From positions 1 through 21,225 of IMG/VR virus record IMGVR_UViG_3300000115_000253: a DNA stretch of 21,225 bases, one strand, 5' to 3'. Below the pieces are notes generated by a model. That model ran no database searches and had not been told where the DNA came from. It worked only from the letters and a program-made list of their open reading frames with translations. This document shows, in pieces, positions 16,155 to 21,225 of this stretch; position 1 is the first letter of the stretch, and the number at the start of each line of letters is the position of its first letter. Both the position numbers and the translations under genes were made by a program. Source of the stretch: a virus.

Positions 16155-16706
16155 TTACACCCTCGCCATTAAGCCTTGAGGCTTCTCTTCTTGCATTGTC
16201 GGTTCTTCAGGCATCTCTTCAGGCATCTCTTCAGCCTCACCTTCATCTGCCTCTAGGGTTGTGGCAACATCTTCTAGGAAGTCTACACCTTCGTCACGTT
16301 CATCTTCTGCTGTTGCTCTTATTGCTTTTCGCACAAGCATAGCTGCACGTTCTTCTACGTTGCTTTCATCTTGCTCAAAGTCTACTTTGTATTCTATCTT
16401 AGCTTCGTTTGCTAATCTAATAATATAATCTGAAACAACTGGTTCAATGATTAAACTAATATCAATGGAGTGAATACCATTTCCTACTGCACCAGTCATC
16501 ATAGCTTCAGCCAAAACCTTTACTGGTAAACCATACTCAAGAGCAAAGAAAACATTATCAATTACCTCGTCATCTTGAAGACGTTCAATGTGGTACTCAA
16601 CAGCCTCGTTGTGGTCTGTAATCTGAGGAGGTCTTTCCCATGCGTAATTCTTAGGTTCATCTGTTAGTGACTGACCTGGTACAGGAGCCATAAAATTTTG
16701 TGACAT
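16155..16706 (-). CDS. Conserved virion protein with acidic repeat tail (183 aa)
   Basis: The N-terminus reads M-A-P-V-P-G-Q-S-L-T-D-E-P, then Y-A-W-E-R-P-P-Q-I-T-D. From memory, 'P-P-x-P-G-x-S-L-T-x-E-P ... ERPP' openings mark a family found in marine tailed phages close to tail and head genes, with unknown role. The middle is helical with two apolar stretches (V-K-V-L-A-E-A-M-M-T-G; D-I-S-L-I-I-E-P-V-V). The tail is Glu/Met/Pro-rich from a 12-base repeat (2.5 copies at 16205-16234) and ends Q-G-L-M-A-R-V. The start shares one base with the previous stop (TAATG), so it is coupled to the 320-aa gene. Confidence 0.65.
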   Translation of the reverse strand: MSQNFMAPVPGQSLTDEPKNYAWERPPQITDHNEAVEYHIERLQDDEVIDNVFFALEYGLPVKVLAEAMMTGAVGNGIHSIDISLIIEPVVSDYIIRLANEAKIEYKVDFEQDESNVEERAAMLVRKAIRATAEDERDEGVDFLEDVATTLEADEGEAEEMPEEMPEEPTMQEEKPQGLMARV

Positions 16707-17668
16707 TATGTAGACCCTCTAATCTCATTAACTATTCTAACTAATCTAGACTTTGGCAGTTTCTTAAAACCTTCCCACTCATTTTTTAACTCAGCTACTG
16801 CTTTATCTATTGAGTAAGTAGGCTTAACTCTTCTCTCTGCTAAATGCATTGCAATAGAGTCTTGTGTTGCCTTATCAAATTTAGTATCGTCAGTAATACC
16901 CATCTTTTTTAAGATATTACGATCACGTAAATCTCGTAGGGTAAGCCCTACCATCTGATACTTTCCAATTGCTGTAGTATCTTGATCGTGTGTATTCAAG
17001 TTATAACTATGCCAATCCCCTCCAAGTTCCATGAGATCAAATATTTCACCCATAGTCATGTCGGTTACTTTAGTTCCTTTGAAAGGAGTGTCTTTTAAGT
17101 GAGCACCATTAAACATGTAGTCATAGTTAGGAGCTTCTACTTCATTTAAAGCTGTCCTAAACTCTGAAGTAATTTGCATGTACCCAGGTAAATCAGAATA
17201 GTCTAAATCCCCTGCAGGAATATCAGCAGGGTTATCATATCCTGTTTCAGAAGAAGCTACAATTCTATCAGCTTGAGCATCTGTTACATCTTCTGCTGCA
17301 TCAATATCCTGTCCCAAAAAAAAATCAAGGTCAGGTGACTTATCCATCTCAGGTGTATCAATAGGATCTAACCCCCCTCTTATAGCAGCAAGCCAAGTAG
17401 CCATATCTCTTTCAGCTTTCATTGGATCATCTGATGACAACAAAGAATCAACTACACCAGACTCATCTCCTGCTTTACTTGCACGTCTAACATCCCCTAT
17501 AGATTTTCTTATTTGATCTGCTGATTCACGAGCATCCCTAGCACCAAGACCTATAATTTCTTTAGTGCTTTGAGCAGACTTTTCTGTTGCATCACCCAGT
17601 ATTAAAGACGCAAGACTGTTAAGCCTTTGCATCCTACGTTTTTCTCTTAATCGATCACTTTCTTGCAT
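16706..17668 (-). CDS. Virion-associated protein with lysozyme/transglycosylase-like C-terminal domain (320 aa)
   Basis: The first 165 residues are charged, with two Arg-rich helices (R-L-R-E-K-R-R-M-Q-R; R-D-A-R-E-S-A-D-Q-I-R-K) and an acidic linker. From about 168 a lysozyme-like domain appears: E-F-R-T-A-L-N-E176-V-E178-A-P-N with a candidate catalytic Glu, then T-A-I-G-K-Y-Q-M (232-239), then K-F-D-K-A-T-Q-D-S-I-A-M-H-L (263-276). The GKYQ block and the Q-D-x-hydrophobic-A helix resemble phage lambda R-type transglycosylases (GH104-like). In a virion operon this would open peptidoglycan during DNA entry. A run of nine T in the coding strand (17316-17324) at residues 115-118 separates the two parts and is a possible slippage site. 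Confidence 0.68.
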   Translation of the reverse strand: MQESDRLREKRRMQRLNSLASLILGDATEKSAQSTKEIIGLGARDARESADQIRKSIGDVRRASKAGDESGVVDSLLSSDDPMKAERDMATWLAAIRGGLDPIDTPEMDKSPDLDFFLGQDIDAAEDVTDAQADRIVASSETGYDNPADIPAGDLDYSDLPGYMQITSEFRTALNEVEAPNYDYMFNGAHLKDTPFKGTKVTDMTMGEIFDLMELGGDWHSYNLNTHDQDTTAIGKYQMVGLTLRDLRDRNILKKMGITDDTKFDKATQDSIAMHLAERRVKPTYSIDKAVAELKNEWEGFKKLPKSRLVRIVNEIRGST

Positions 17669-17669
17669 T

Positions 17670-20600
17670 TTATATAAGTCCTACTGCTTTCATAAATACG
17701 GCTGATATTAAATTAGAAGCCCCTGCTTCAGCTTCAATATCTGCTTGTAACTCTGCACCTTCAATTGCTGCTTTGTTTGCAAGCTTTTGTAACATAATTG
17801 AGTTGTTTCTAGCAAGTGTGTTCTCTGAAGATTGGAATGCCATTGACAACAAATCTCGTTCTCTCTGCCATATCTCATCAAGACCTGCTTGAGTAATGTT
17901 ATTTACATTCTTAGCATACTCCATATTTGAAGCATTAGCTGCAGAAGTATTAATGGTAGCTAAGTTCTGTCTCCACTGAGCATTAGCTTGTGCTACAACA
18001 AGATAGTTCTGAGCATTAAACATTTCTCTTTGATTCTGAAGTGCAGAATTAAACTCAAGAAGAGAGTTAACCTCATCAGCATTAAACTGTTTCATAGCAT
18101 TCATTTGTGCTGCGTTAAACTGATTTACTGAAGAAGACAGATTAGCAAAGAACTGATTAGTCTGATTCTCTGATGTAGCATTAAATTGAAGAGCAGCATT
18201 AGCTGCAGCCTGATCAGAGAGTATAGAACTAACTAAAGACTGTTGTTTAAACAAGGCTGTCTGCTGTTCATTAGACAAGTTAGCCATGTCAACTTGTAAA
18301 AAGTTCTGAGCATTTTGTACTTCGGCCTGTTGTCTATTATTCAAATTCTGTGTGTCAAGTTGAGATAACGCAGCAGCTTCTGCCATGACTAGTGCTTGTT
18401 CATTACTAAGATTTTGCAACTCCATTGTGTTTGCAGCCCTAGAGTTTTCCAAAGCTATCTGCTGTTCAGCAGTAAAGTTCATATTTGCTATATCAGAAAC
18501 TTTCGCAGCATTTATAACTTTAGCCTGGAAGTCTTGATCAAAGTCCATCTGTAAAAACTTAGCTCTTTGTTCTGCTTTGAACAGAGCCATCTGCTGTTTG
18601 TTTGCTGTGTCAATCTGAGCAATAGGAAGAGCAGCTTCCATAGCAGCCTGGATCACAGCCTGACCTGCCATACTAGAAGCACCTAACCCTCTTTCAGCAA
18701 GCATCTGTGAAGCTTTTCTCATAGAACCTGCAGCCCAGGCAGGTGTTTCACCACCCTCAAACTGAGACATAAGACCTGCTAGTTCATCCTGTACAGAGGC
18801 AGCAGCCACTTCACCAGTACCAAAGGTTTCACCTACTTTTCTTTGGTCTACAGAGCTAAGACCTTGATTACCTTTAGCAACTGATTCCCCAGTTTCTAAT
18901 TTTCTTGGGTCTGGTGCATCAACATCAATAGAGTCTCCACTCGCAGCATCAAGATCTGCAACAGAGCTTGTCTTTTGTTCCTGTCCTGTTATACTTTTTG
19001 TAGGTCCAGTAGATGTTGCTGCAGTCATATCATCAGTAGCAGACTTTACATCCCCATAAGCTTGATTAGCTGATATTTGTGAAGCACCTATTTTTTGTGG
19101 AACATCAGCAGTAGTAGCAGTATCAATCTGTGCTACCTGCTCTTCCTGAATAGTAGGTGCTGTAGCAAGAGCCTGACCTGCAGTAGACTCAACGACAGTG
19201 CCATAAGTGTTAGGATCAATATAAGAAACAGGAGAGGCAGCTACTGCACCACCTGGTTGTGCAAAGGCTTGAGCATTTAGATTAGCTTGGTACTGTGCTA
19301 AATCTTCAGGTGTAACTGTTGTTTCTCCTGTAGGTATATCAGAACCTACACTGGCATCAATAGGTTCAGGTTTGTTAGTCTTTGCTTCTGCTGCAGCTTT
19401 ATCAGCTTCTATTTTGGCTAGAGTTGCAGGATCTTGAATATAAGTTTGATAAGCAGCAGCCATAGCATCTTTATCAAAACCAGGAAGACTGCTATCGTAT
19501 CCTTGATTAGATAAGTAAGTACCATAGTCAGGTAAACCAAGGTTAGATGTACCTGAATCATTAGCAGATTTAGCATTCAATGCTGTGTCATACCCCTGAG
19601 AATATGTTCCATCAGGATACTTGATCCTGTATATACCATCCTGCTCAACAACAGTGCCACCAGGCTTAAAGTTCATGGCAGGGTTTACTGTACCACCTGG
19701 ATTAAACCCTTGGATCACACCCCCTTGATTAAAAGTATCTACCTTATAATACCCAGGTGGAATCGGCTGTACAGGCTCATCATTTATGTGTTGAATGTAC
19801 ATAGTCATACCAAACCTGTTACGGTACAATACATTTTTAAAACCTGAAGAAGAACCTGCAGCTACTTTTTCTGCTTCTGTTTGAGGTTGAATGAGTGAAG
19901 CAGCTTCAGTAGCTCTATTAGCAAACTGTGTTTCTTGTAAACCAATTCCTGCTTCATAAGTAGGAAGATTTACTTCACTAGTACCAGTCTTTCCACCTCC
20001 ATACACAGGTGTAACATTACCAATACTAGGTGTACTAACATAATTAGGGCCACCATAACTCCCTGTGCTTCCCCCAGTTGTTTGACCTCCACCTACGTTA
20101 CCACCTACACCAGACACATTTCCTGAGAGTCTACCAGTTCCAGTAGTTCCAGTAGTTCCAGTAGTCTTTTTCTTTTTCTTAGTAAGATCCCACTCTAGCA
20201 TGTCAAGAAGCTTAGAGTTGTCTGTACCTGCTAGCCTGTCCATTTCATCACGAGCTTCTTGAGCAGTTGAAGCACCTCTATCATCAAAACTACTTAAGTT
20301 ACCTCCAAGGAATCCTGCTGTTGACCCAAATGTACCTTTTGTATTAGCAGCCCCATAACCCATTTCTTTCATTTTTTGTTCTAAGTAAAAGGCGTTTGCT
20401 GAATTACTACTAACAATACTTACTTCATTGGGGTCTAAATCTGCATCAATTAAGTCTTGCTCAGTAGGAGCAGTCTGCCATTTGTCAGATAATATTTGAG
20501 CACCTACATCGTTAGGTGAGTTACTGCCATAAAAGTTAGCTTGTTCCCCAGGGTTATACCCTGCAGCTTTAAGAACTTTATCTAGGTCAGAAGAAGCCAT

Positions 20601-20930
20601 CGTATCATTAGGATCAATACCTAAAGATTCGTAGGCTGCACTCATGTCACTAGTATTAACACCAGTGTTTTGAGCAAGAAACTTTAAGTCAGCAGCAGAA
20701 GCAATTTCATCTGCGTACTCTGTTAACTTAGATTCATCCACAACCCTAGAGGGTGCTCCTGTAACTTTTAGCTCAACACCATCATACGCATAGTTTCCAT
20801 CTGCATTTACAGTTACACCTGCAACACTTGCATCTCCTGCAGCAATAAGCTTATCAAGCTCAGGATTATCTCCTTCAGCTATTGTTGATCCTGCAGGTAA
20901 TGTCGATTTTACTGTTTTAAATACTGCCAT
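17670..20930 (-). CDS. Large virion protein with hendecad repeat array (1086 aa)
   Basis: Likely a tail or internal virion protein; no enzyme domain is seen. In order: an acidic N-terminal part (1-250); K-K-K-K-K and Thr-Gly repeats (near 255-264) leading into a Gly-rich stretch; Y-R-N-R-F-G-M-T-M-Y-I and P-I-P-P-G-Y-Y at 369-395, a block I recall from marine phage virion proteins; three F-[N/K]-x-G-G repeats at 400-427; a low-complexity Ala/Gln/Thr region; a conserved block at 715-773 containing A-G-L-M-S-Q-F-E-G-G-E-T-P and G-L-G-A-S-S-M-A-G-Q-A; then an Asn/Gln-rich repeat array at 774-1002 and an apolar end (L-I-S-A-V-F-M-K-A-V-G-L-I). The ATG follows AAGG by 9 bases. The upstream epimerase stop is 17 bases away. 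Confidence 0.72.
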   Translation of the reverse strand: MAVFKTVKSTLPAGSTIAEGDNPELDKLIAAGDASVAGVTVNADGNYAYDGVELKVTGAPSRVVDESKLTEYADEIASAADLKFLAQNTGVNTSDMSAAYESLGIDPNDTMASSDLDKVLKAAGYNPGEQANFYGSNSPNDVGAQILSDKWQTAPTEQDLIDADLDPNEVSIVSSNSANAFYLEQKMKEMGYGAANTKGTFGSTAGFLGGNLSSFDDRGASTAQEARDEMDRLAGTDNSKLLDMLEWDLTKKKKKTTGTTGTTGTGRLSGNVSGVGGNVGGGQTTGGSTGSYGGPNYVSTPSIGNVTPVYGGGKTGTSEVNLPTYEAGIGLQETQFANRATEAASLIQPQTEAEKVAAGSSSGFKNVLYRNRFGMTMYIQHINDEPVQPIPPGYYKVDTFNQGGVIQGFNPGGTVNPAMNFKPGGTVVEQDGIYRIKYPDGTYSQGYDTALNAKSANDSGTSNLGLPDYGTYLSNQGYDSSLPGFDKDAMAAAYQTYIQDPATLAKIEADKAAAEAKTNKPEPIDASVGSDIPTGETTVTPEDLAQYQANLNAQAFAQPGGAVAASPVSYIDPNTYGTVVESTAGQALATAPTIQEEQVAQIDTATTADVPQKIGASQISANQAYGDVKSATDDMTAATSTGPTKSITGQEQKTSSVADLDAASGDSIDVDAPDPRKLETGESVAKGNQGLSSVDQRKVGETFGTGEVAAASVQDELAGLMSQFEGGETPAWAAGSMRKASQMLAERGLGASSMAGQAVIQAAMEAALPIAQIDTANKQQMALFKAEQRAKFLQMDFDQDFQAKVINAAKVSDIANMNFTAEQQIALENSRAANTMELQNLSNEQALVMAEAAALSQLDTQNLNNRQQAEVQNAQNFLQVDMANLSNEQQTALFKQQSLVSSILSDQAAANAALQFNATSENQTNQFFANLSSSVNQFNAAQMNAMKQFNADEVNSLLEFNSALQNQREMFNAQNYLVVAQANAQWRQNLATINTSAANASNMEYAKNVNNITQAGLDEIWQRERDLLSMAFQSSENTLARNNSIMLQKLANKAAIEGAELQADIEAEAGASNLISAVFMKAVGLI
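17925..18611 (-). repeat. Coding 11/22-residue (hendecad) repeat array
   Basis: Residues 774-1002 of the 1086-aa protein divide into about ten consecutive 22-residue units without any gap. Early units start D-T-A-N-K-Q-Q, D-F-D-Q-D-F-Q, N-F-T-A-E-Q-Q, N-L-S-N-E-Q-A, N-L-N-N-R-Q-Q and N-L-S-N-E-Q-Q. In the later half the period halves to 11, with units opening Q-F-N, Q-F-F, Q-F-N, Q-F-N, E-F-N, M-F-N, Q-A-N and T-I-N. An 11-residue period is that of hendecad coiled coils. DNA identity between units is low, so the array is old and kept by selection on the protein. Confidence 0.8.
20138..20164 (-). repeat. Three perfect 9-base tandem repeats
   Basis: TTCCAGTAG occurs three times head to tail on the plus strand (20138-20146, 20147-20155, 20156-20164), encoding Thr-Gly-Thr units next to a K-K-K-K-K run in the 1086-aa protein. 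Perfect identity suggests recent expansion in a flexible linker. Confidence 0.85.
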
Positions 20931-20947
20931 ACTATTTTACCTTAATA

Positions 20948-21225
20948 TCATGATAAAGTTCTCCAAAGCTTTGTTGTATCTGCCTTAGTGAAATTTTGAT
21001 AACCCTTTTTTAATTTTTCTGGCATGTCTATCCATTCGATAGATGCCCCTGTTTCCTTACATATACTCAAGGCAACCTCGTAAAAGCTTTTCTCAAACCC
21101 TGTGCCTACGTTCCAAACATCTGACTTTTGTATAGAGAAAAATCTTTGATGATACTCTGTAATCTTGTCTACGTGAATAAAATCTCTGTAGAAATATTCT
21201 GAGTTCTTGAATAGCTTGACCTTTC
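20948..21225 (-). CDS. hldD: HldD-like ADP-heptose epimerase, C-terminal part (5' end outside window)
   Basis: The minus-strand frame is open from the window edge to TGA at 20948-20950 and gives the last 91 residues of an extended short-chain dehydrogenase/reductase. It contains Y-R-D-F-I-H-V-D-K-I, W-N-V-G-T-G-F-E-K-S-F, and I-E-W-I-D-M-P-E-K-L...Y-Q-N-F-T-K-A-D-T-T-K-L, which matches the end of ADP-L-glycero-D-manno-heptose 6-epimerase rather than other sugar epimerases. HldD makes the heptose precursor of LPS inner core. The protein stops right after this block, about 30 residues short of E. coli HldD, and the next gene follows after 17 bases. It could also be a related GDP-heptose or nucleotide-sugar epimerase. 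The NAD-binding N-terminus is not visible. Confidence 0.75.
   Translation of the reverse strand, partial: KVKLFKNSEYFYRDFIHVDKITEYHQRFFSIQKSDVWNVGTGFEKSFYEVALSICKETGASIEWIDMPEKLKKGYQNFTKADTTKLWRTLS

Follow-up and report, generated by a model that had tools for sequence, protein, structure and literature searches.

The window analysed here, the whole stretch of 21225 bases, is an entire IMG/VR virus record, so the copy of hldD at its end cannot be extended. The 5′ part of the gene lies beyond the end of the record, and its 91-aa open frame runs off the window. The features at this end are as follows.

20948..21223, minus strand: 3′ part (91 codons plus stop) of an hldD-like gene for an ADP-heptose 6-epimerase, assigned from TIGR02197, PDB 1eq2 and full-length relatives
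20931..20947, minus strand: gap of 17 bases between the hldD stop and the next start
17670..20930, minus strand: 1086-aa gene after hldD, presumed structural by its place
16706-17668, minus strand: 320-aa gene after the 1086-aa gene, with a weak endolysin-type match (phrog_90, E 2.1e-8)

The hldD fragment matches TIGR02197 (ADP-glyceromanno-heptose 6-epimerase; E 4.7e-20, 72 bits), E. coli HldD in the PDB (1eq2; E 1.6e-12) and PHROG 540, "nucleotide-sugar epimerase" (E 1.5e-9); no Pfam family was matched at E 0.01. Its motif Y-Q-N-F-T-K-A-D-T-T-K-L aligns with Y-Q-A-F-T-Q-A-D-L-T-N-L of E. coli HldD. These matches bear out an earlier note on this DNA, which had recognised an HldD-like protein with HldD-specific residues. 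The 17-base gap to the next gene is consistent with one transcript. That next gene, of 1086 aa, has DNA matches in CRP-9 gp40 and CRP-13 gp39, each annotated as hypothetical, and no Pfam or PHROG match at E 0.01. The window itself holds no gene upstream of hldD. Two related loci, L002 and L003, match the window collinearly along 3.4 kb, with 93% identity, and their upstream DNA is thus a fair guide to the missing part; the same collinearity rules out a misassembled or chance window end.

When the fragment was used to scan viral contigs, 24 stretches were matched, and a relative is encoded in 16 of them. The gene is complete in 14 of these 16 loci, always at 256-261 aa, with L002 and L003 supplying a full hldD of 256 aa. 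The upstream sequence that the earlier note had wanted is therefore at hand, and it carries an intact NAD motif and catalytic Ser, Tyr, Lys and Lys: GxxGFIG and S116, Y140, K144 and K178 (E. coli numbers; residues that we take to be catalytic in E. coli HldD) are identical in the HldD of L003, L010, P-SSM2 and S-CAM3, and the catalytic residues are invariant among 12 aligned close relatives. A broken or decaying hldD is ruled out by this invariance and by the complete gene in 14 of 16 loci. The HldD-like fragment is genuine, and its enzyme is predicted to be functional.

The phage enzyme is nevertheless shorter than the 310-aa HldD of E. coli K-12. It lacks a loop of ∼29 residues in the N-terminal half, and its C terminus falls ∼22 residues short (residue 86 of the fragment corresponds to E. 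coli residue 283, leaving 5 residues compared with 27), so that the C-terminal domain is incomplete relative to the E. coli protein. The claim that the tail is truly missing, with the next gene 17 bases on, agrees with the short C terminus of the complete relatives; the truncation stands, whereas its size, given as about 30 residues, comes down to ∼22 by the 1eq2 alignment. A comparison of lengths, also proposed, finds the short form shared by the viral relatives. A second scan with the aligned HldD family gave 442 relatives, and the best 80 of the 442, at 51% identity or more, are nearly all 255-264 aa where complete, with four longer by start choice. As judged from these sequences, the short tail is a family trait. 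Full-length proteins from L003 (215.3 bits) and L010 (216.0 bits) stay under the TIGR02197 equivalog cut-off of 274.6 bits. One scan of genome contigs with strict patterns found no bacterial source close to the short HldD.

In L003, L010 and related loci, the gene order is fibre-like proteins, a GT9-like protein (308 aa), a carbamoyltransferase (570 aa), GmhB-like, HldC-like and HldA-like proteins, a cupin (118 aa), HldD, and the long gene; in these loci and their kin the GmhB-like phosphatase lies on the other strand from the rest of the operon. The earlier note placed hldD at the head of a virion operon. In the relatives hldD does lie among fibre and structural genes, but it is better read as the last gene of a heptose operon that is flanked by the fibre-like genes on one side and, on the other, by the long gene with which the structural block continues. 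Late expression of hldD, as predicted by this gene order, is plausible. The GmhB-like protein matches D-glycero-D-manno-heptose 1,7-bisphosphate 7-phosphatase (PRK08942, 126 bits), the HldC-like adenylyltransferase matches rfaE domain II (102.7 bits), and the HldA-like kinase matches rfaE domain I (132.2 bits). Broader models are above their cut-offs (HAD-IIIA TIGR01662, TIGR00125, and the Pfam epimerase, cupin, PfkB and carbamoyltransferase domains), whereas the specific NCBIfam equivalog models are under theirs, and the enzymes are accordingly named only as "-like."

Searches for GmhA (TIGR00441), including a copy hidden elsewhere in the virus, gave 0 of 18 records in one set and 0 of 24 in another; two records belong to both sets, and many are fragments. 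Among 55 more distant loci, 47 have a cupin close to HldD. Its metal site HxH, E, H (H39, H41, E46 and H86) is invariant in 24 of 24 sequences, and the L003 protein scores 21.3 bits against PF01050 (mannose-6-phosphate isomerase), under the 23.6 cut-off. We take the operon cupin to resemble a type II PMI-like sugar-phosphate isomerase, and our guess is that it may replace GmhA in isomerising sedoheptulose 7-phosphate. A cupin scan of genome contigs gave 69 loci, 11 with an HldA-like and 12 with an HldC-like neighbour by phage-derived profiles. A GmhA search in the genomes behind 15 of these loci gave a match at E 1e-10 in eight, with one above the curated cut-off; GmhA in 8 of 15 neither proves nor excludes a role for the cupin as isomerase. 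The PHROG label of the cupin, cysteine dioxygenase, was set aside because the cupin also occurs in heptose cassettes without Cys-rich fibres.

Several further observations concern these cassettes. The "putative nucleotidyltransferase" T4-GC 307 of P-SSM2 (L098 14312-14993; also in L096, L245 and L247) is a cupin, and the "phosphoheptose isomerase" T4-GC 306 of cyanophages has weak HAD-type matches only; these annotations look wrong. A cupin-HldD-HldC-HldA cassette recurs in viral contigs beside replication-type genes (L040-L095 except L050, for example L066 9624-11893), mostly with neither GT9 nor carbamoyltransferase genes, and its purpose there may differ, perhaps concerning the host surface. 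Compact clusters of cupin, HldA, HldC and short-HAD genes in bacterial or archaeal MAG contigs (L279, L280, L292 and L300) are possibly cellular relatives or more viral contigs. GT9, carbamoyltransferase and heptose genes also occur in L309 and L321, filed as Rhodobacteraceae and Euryarchaeota MAGs, which are probably virus contigs binned into cellular genomes.

The GT9-like protein of L003 scores 20.2 bits against PF01075, below the gathering score of 22, and matches TIGR02201 at E 1.8e-7. Its P-SSM2 counterpart reaches 15.4 bits against PF01075, and at E 0.001 a match to heptosyltransferase III is given by 30 of the 46 phage members. An AlphaFold2 model built from the 46 sequences has a mean pLDDT of 93.7. 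The solved folds nearest to this model are the GT9 structure 3tov (Z 23.7, rmsd 3.2, 277 aligned) and WaaF (Z 22.1), followed by TibC (Z 21.1) and WaaC (Z 20.0); chloroplast NDH subunits come next (Z 18.8-19.7), and other GT-B enzymes fall below 12. The model thus predicts the GT-B fold of GT9. A PDB sequence search with the GT9-like profile returned a single chance-level match; kinship with GT9 was settled by the fold search and not by the sequence search. Profile comparison with E. coli WaaC, WaaF and WaaU aligned only the C-lobe, including a D-x4-H motif, at a probability of 80%. In GT-B enzymes it is the N-lobe that contacts the acceptor; here this lobe has an invariant GGAGR in the 46 phage sequences, in which R13 follows G12 where the E. 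coli enzymes have G12-D13, a region left unaligned by the profile. D13 of WaaC is presumably the N-terminal catalytic Asp.

The family of bacterial autotransporter-type transferases modelled by TIGR04414 (BAHT) was matched by 1 of the 46 members (E 5.1e-4) and, at E 0.001, not by the L003 protein. GT9-like enzymes of the window group contain 0-2 Cys and those of the cyanophages 4 and 7, so the window group has no room for the four-cysteine iron finger of BAHT enzymes; the combination of this finger with an N-terminal β-barrel was not found in that group. A remote GT9 relative at 24% identity is present in Aeromonas phage HJ05 (L244 7249-9864; host Aeromonas hydrophila), with no carbamoyltransferase match; its gene lies directly after a 559-aa ORF with 23 Cys (4.1%), which is suggestive only. 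The carbamoyltransferase of the operon matches PF16861 at 210.5 bits, with both Carbam_trans_N (83.7) and Carbam_trans_C (210.5) above cut-off, and it matches carbamoyltransferases in the PDB from E 2.3e-52 (TobZ, 3.9e-52). Two cyanophage modules (L245 14441-17585 and L246 8239-17520) hold a second carbamoyltransferase-like gene.

The proteins encoded just upstream of GT9 are unusual in composition, with ∼10% cysteine and up to 13% (71 of 712 residues in L003, 114 of 1120 in L005); the L003 protein has a weak match to a virion structural protein PHROG (E 2e-7). Cyanophages and many viral contigs repeat this arrangement, with Cys-rich fibre, GT9 and carbamoyltransferase in that order. Our main count took as Cys-rich any ORF of at least 200 aa with at least 6% cysteine, removed near-duplicates, and excluded the window's own stretch and named phage records. 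Within 4.5 kb upstream of the GT9 and carbamoyltransferase pair, 106 of 240 distinct ORFs are Cys-rich; in other parts of these loci the count is 8 of 567, and control loci that lack the pair give 0 of 316. Upstream sequence of 3 kb or more is available for 56 distinct GT9 lineages. A Cys-rich ORF is present in 42 of them at the 6% level and in 47 at 4%; the 14 without any ORF of 6% include five that reach 4%. A contrast by heptose genes covered the 49 lineages for which upstream sequence exceeds 3 kb and downstream sequence 6 kb. HldA, HldC, HldD or cupin is carried by 29 of them, and all four by 20. Cys-rich fibres occur in 28 of the 29 heptose-gene lineages compared with 7 of the 20 without detected heptose genes (Fisher p 3.4e-6, a value that is too small because lineages share ancestry). 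The one exception among the 29 is L207, which has the pair and the heptose genes with 0.1% cysteine.

Counts were also made with lower length limits. In L020-L095, all 21 GT9 and carbamoyltransferase loci have an ORF of at least 120 aa with 6% cysteine; such an ORF occurs in 5 of the remaining 55 loci, where it is 131-170 aa. L099-L239 were gathered by carbamoyltransferase scans and were not selected for cysteine. Across all the loci collected, L099-L239 among them, 105 of 142 with both genes, duplicates and truncated loci included, have a Cys-rich ORF (at least 150 aa, 6%) among the six ORFs upstream, and several of the other 37 are cut off or reach 4-5.5%. L168 and L173 have a carbamoyltransferase without a GT9 match and yet a 183-aa ORF with 11 Cys (6%). 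In L041, L042, L043 and L046, GT9 and heptose genes occur without carbamoyltransferase, and no Cys-rich ORF lies upstream; in L041, L043 and L046, the three for which upstream sequence is available, the preceding ORF has 1882 aa with 0.3-0.4% Cys. From these four loci, cysteine richness appears to follow the carbamoyltransferase more closely than heptose, which leaves room for the carbamoyltransferase being what demands cysteine.

The larger finding is thus a recurrent phage module in which genes for ADP-heptose synthesis, a GT9-like transferase and a carbamoyltransferase are coupled to Cys-rich fibre-like proteins. By analogy with bacterial systems that sugar-coat adhesins, we propose, with a probability of roughly 0.5, that the phage operon makes ADP-heptose and that it heptosylates and carbamoylates the phage's own Cys-rich fibres, perhaps on cysteine.

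The module could also be explained if HldD were an ordinary, virus-specific auxiliary enzyme that accompanies other sugar genes and has no functional tie to the fibres, the linkage arising from shared descent or transfer of one hypervariable tail-fibre region. The enzymes are indeed related across phage groups (49% identity for carbamoyltransferase and 38% for GT9 between the window group and P-SSM2), and hypervariable host-recognition clusters are described for T4-like phages in the available text of PMC7029224. To examine the fibres themselves, the 118 distinct Cys-rich proteins with a length of 200 aa or more were clustered with cysteine masked (BLAST, E 1e-5 over 40% of the shorter protein), giving 42 clusters. 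Among the 40 listed, nine begin with the anchor MAYKING, a point in favour of common descent, and four with MSTYSTFA or a near form. The clusters are therefore not fully independent. Past the shared N-terminal anchors, however, no similarity between the bodies was detected; a high cysteine content has thus arisen in fibres of different kinds, and this speaks against inheritance of a single block. L208-L239 point the same way: L225 and L226 have GT9 and Cys-rich ORFs, whereas the other 30 of these 32 carbamoyltransferase loci, several of them short or cut, have neither a GT9 match nor a Cys-rich ORF. We consider shared descent without function very improbable.

What the cysteines do is a separate question. 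Cysteine makes up 9.7% of the Cys-rich proteins compared with 0.9% of other ORFs; the Cys-rich proteins are poor in Lys, Glu, Asp, Leu and Ile and rich in Gly. In 354 pairs at 40-75% identity, which are not independent, cysteine is the best conserved residue (82%), and in a family of 33 sequences two cysteines are invariant and three more are at least 90% conserved. Such conservation fits acceptor sites and disulfides alike. It would be expected if the fibres carried their modification on Ser or Thr, or carried none, and the cysteines served for dense disulfide stapling or metal binding in the exposed fibre, the two traits being linked as parts of a single host-recognition cassette. The absence of Cys-rich fibres from the four loci in which GT9 and heptose genes lack an accompanying carbamoyltransferase also suits this account, as does the use of serine by TibC itself (PMC4358343, as available). 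However, the number of cysteines is odd in 62 and even in 56 of the 118 proteins, with no sign of full pairing; the controls contain no Cys-rich ORF of at least 200 aa among 316; and the account leaves unexplained why differing fibres gain cysteine mainly beside the transferase pair. We judge this account unlikely. When cysteine is replaced, it is mostly by Asn, Thr, Ser or Arg, whereas in ordinary proteins Ala, Val, Ile, Gly and Leu take its place, a pattern that points to surface positions. The spacing of cysteines has a mild excess at 1 and 2 residues only, and thus no clean β-strand pattern.

Structurally, a model of the 33-member family has a moderate pLDDT of 70.0, and its best match is the fibre of cyanophage Pam3 (7ypx; E 5.3e-6, TM 0.46). 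The Pfam glycine-rich domain Gly_rich_2 occurs in 11 of the 33 members; with the Pam3 match, this suggests that at least the modelled family is fibre-like. A control of 42 records yielded three Gly_rich_2 domains of low cysteine, too few to weigh, and a search of the PDB by sequence with the Cys-rich profile gave no convincing relative. In L132 (1706-5674), a 1322-aa ORF consists of repeats (NTTGxxNxAxG), which we take to be YadA-like, and has 82 Cys, many at repeat positions.

S-SSM7, Sf-FS3, S-CAM1, S-CAM3, P-SSM2, AG-345-O18 and AG-345-P14 each combine Cys-rich ORFs with GT9, carbamoyltransferase and heptose genes in one region; the Cys-rich proteins of S-CAM1 are C030809_105 to _107. AG-345-O18 and AG-345-P14 are single-cell viruses, and in AG-345-O18 the heptose genes are on the other side of the fibres. 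P-SSM2 has two and S-CAM3 three Cys-rich proteins in the same gene order. S-SM2 has HldA, HldC, HldD and cupin with no GT9 or carbamoyltransferase match; a level of 5% cysteine is found in 0 of its 119 ORFs with 150 aa or more (the sequence was covered as four stretches, which cut the ORFs at their borders), and its heptose genes are within a polysaccharide-like gene cluster. For CRP-9 and CRP-13 (50 of 56 and 50 of 55 kb), the corresponding count is 0 of 56. The S-SSM7 module also contains a tryptophan halogenase and that of Sf-FS3 several prolyl-hydroxylase-like genes, so these fibres may bear other modifications as well.

The recorded host of Sf-FS3, Synechococcus WH8102, bears on the purpose that the earlier note had proposed, a change to the heptose of host LPS that blocks superinfection or frees progeny. 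In such a scheme, the GT9-like enzyme would add heptose or carbamoyl-heptose to host LPS late in infection. GT9 is the LPS heptosyltransferase family, 30 of 46 phage members match heptosyltransferase III, and the fold agrees; moreover, rfaE and glycosyltransferase genes of pelagimyophages, many near tail fibres, have been read as O-chain modification against co-infection (PMC7029224, in the text available), and S-SM2 keeps its heptose genes with polysaccharide-like ones. According to the available part of a review (PMC4515613), however, the LPS of Synechococcus WH8102 and CC9311 contains neither heptose nor Kdo, whereas both are reported in Spirulina. Because Sf-FS3 carries the module, an LPS core is a poor target candidate in such a phage. 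A host-LPS target also leaves the linkage with Cys-rich fibres unexplained, and profile similarity to E. coli WaaC, WaaF and WaaU is limited to the C-lobe. With the operon's own GT9-like and carbamoyltransferase genes directly behind the Cys-rich fibre-like genes, and the module present in a phage of a heptose-less host, the proposed purpose is not supported, and we hold host-surface modification to be distinctly unlikely here; the fibre of the phage itself is more likely to be the target. Modification of LPS is most plausible for phages with heptose genes but no GT9 or carbamoyltransferase, such as S-SM2.

In the proposed fibre-coating pathway, sedoheptulose 7-phosphate would be converted to D-glycero-D-manno-heptose 7-phosphate, either by the cupin in the role of GmhA or by the GmhA of the host, and the kinase, phosphatase, adenylyltransferase and HldD would then yield ADP-L,D-heptose. 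The GT9-like enzyme would transfer heptose to the Cys-rich fibre encoded next to it, most simply to cysteine sulfur. The carbamoyltransferase could cap the heptose, or it could act on the fibre itself; carbamoylated heptose occurs in Pseudomonas LPS. The resulting sugar coat may tune the receptor binding, stability or recognition of the fibre. With cysteine as the acceptor, the gain of cysteine by differing fibres beside the transferase pair would be most simply accounted for. A widespread viral modification, with heptose or carbamoylated heptose on dozens of cysteine sulfurs per fibre subunit, is a possibility that we advance tentatively and well short of even odds. The same doubtful standing applies to the corollary of this S-linked reading, in which the GT9-like transferase would write a thio-linked coat on differing bodies and cysteine density would have evolved as acceptor. 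To our knowledge, no other protein S-heptosylation is known, and our literature searches found none.

If the fibre-coating proposal is true, aquatic phages of several kinds make a sugar to dress their own receptor-binding fibres and not to alter the host, which would explain heptose genes in a WH8102 phage despite the heptose-less LPS. Genes now read as LPS remodelling or host-surface functions would be recast as a virion-coating system, and there would be a new enzyme family for multi-site protein glycosylation, possibly on cysteine. The cultivated phages S-CAM1, S-CAM3, S-SSM7, P-SSM2 and Sf-FS3 make the proposal directly testable. Among the open-access matches listed (subscription journals and preprints lay outside this scope), we found no published account of the module. 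The main text of PMC9038755 (HMO-2011-type phages) and PMC8528129 (CRP-9 and CRP-13), as available, mentions no epimerase, heptose or lipopolysaccharide, and the available text of PMC12629253 (roseophages) no epimerase, heptose or carbamoyltransferase.

Each part of the module can be compared with known systems. Its HldD shares with E. coli HldD (RfaD, 1eq2) the NAD motif, the Ser, Tyr and two Lys named above, and Y-Q-x-F-T-x-A-D, but differs in length (256-261 aa, with one loop and ∼22 C-terminal residues missing) and scores 215 of the 274.6 bits asked by TIGR02197. The cyanomyovirus clusters of P-SSM2, S-CAM1, S-CAM3, S-SSM7 and S-SM2 contain these cupin, HldC, HldA, HAD-like and HldD genes too, under the annotations nucleotidyltransferase, carbohydrate kinase, phosphoheptose isomerase and epimerase. 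The carbamoyltransferase holds both Pfam domains of the NodU/TobZ O-carbamoyltransferases, whereas its acceptor would probably be heptose or the fibre. Cyanophage carbamoyltransferase, which may not be of the NodU type, has been read as pyrimidine synthesis (PMC9146016 and PMC10436341), and in the available text of these papers and PMC7029224, none of the published readings of cyanomyovirus and related phages ties sugar genes to Cys-rich fibres, unlike ours. The GT9-like enzyme has the fold of the LPS heptosyltransferases WaaC, WaaF and WaaQ (WaaF Z 22.1, WaaC Z 20.0) and their C-lobe D-x4-H, but differs from WaaC, WaaF and WaaU in an N-lobe that the profile could not align and in GGAGR where E. 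coli has G12-D13. With TibC and AAH it shares a GT9-like GT-B fold (Z 21). According to the available text of PMC4358343, BAHTs glycosylate a surface adhesin from ADP-heptose, and TibC, which features a four-cysteine iron finger and an N-terminal β-barrel, hyper-heptosylates TibA on serine. The phage model lacks the barrel (its residue 1 corresponds to TibC residue 97), its acceptor would be a Cys-rich fibre, and a carbamoyltransferase is added. We do not claim membership in HldD, GT9 or BAHT proper where cut-offs or features fail; our claim, made by analogy, is that the phage module would work like a BAHT system, resembling the TibC-type autotransporter heptosyltransferases that hyper-heptosylate adhesins on serine.
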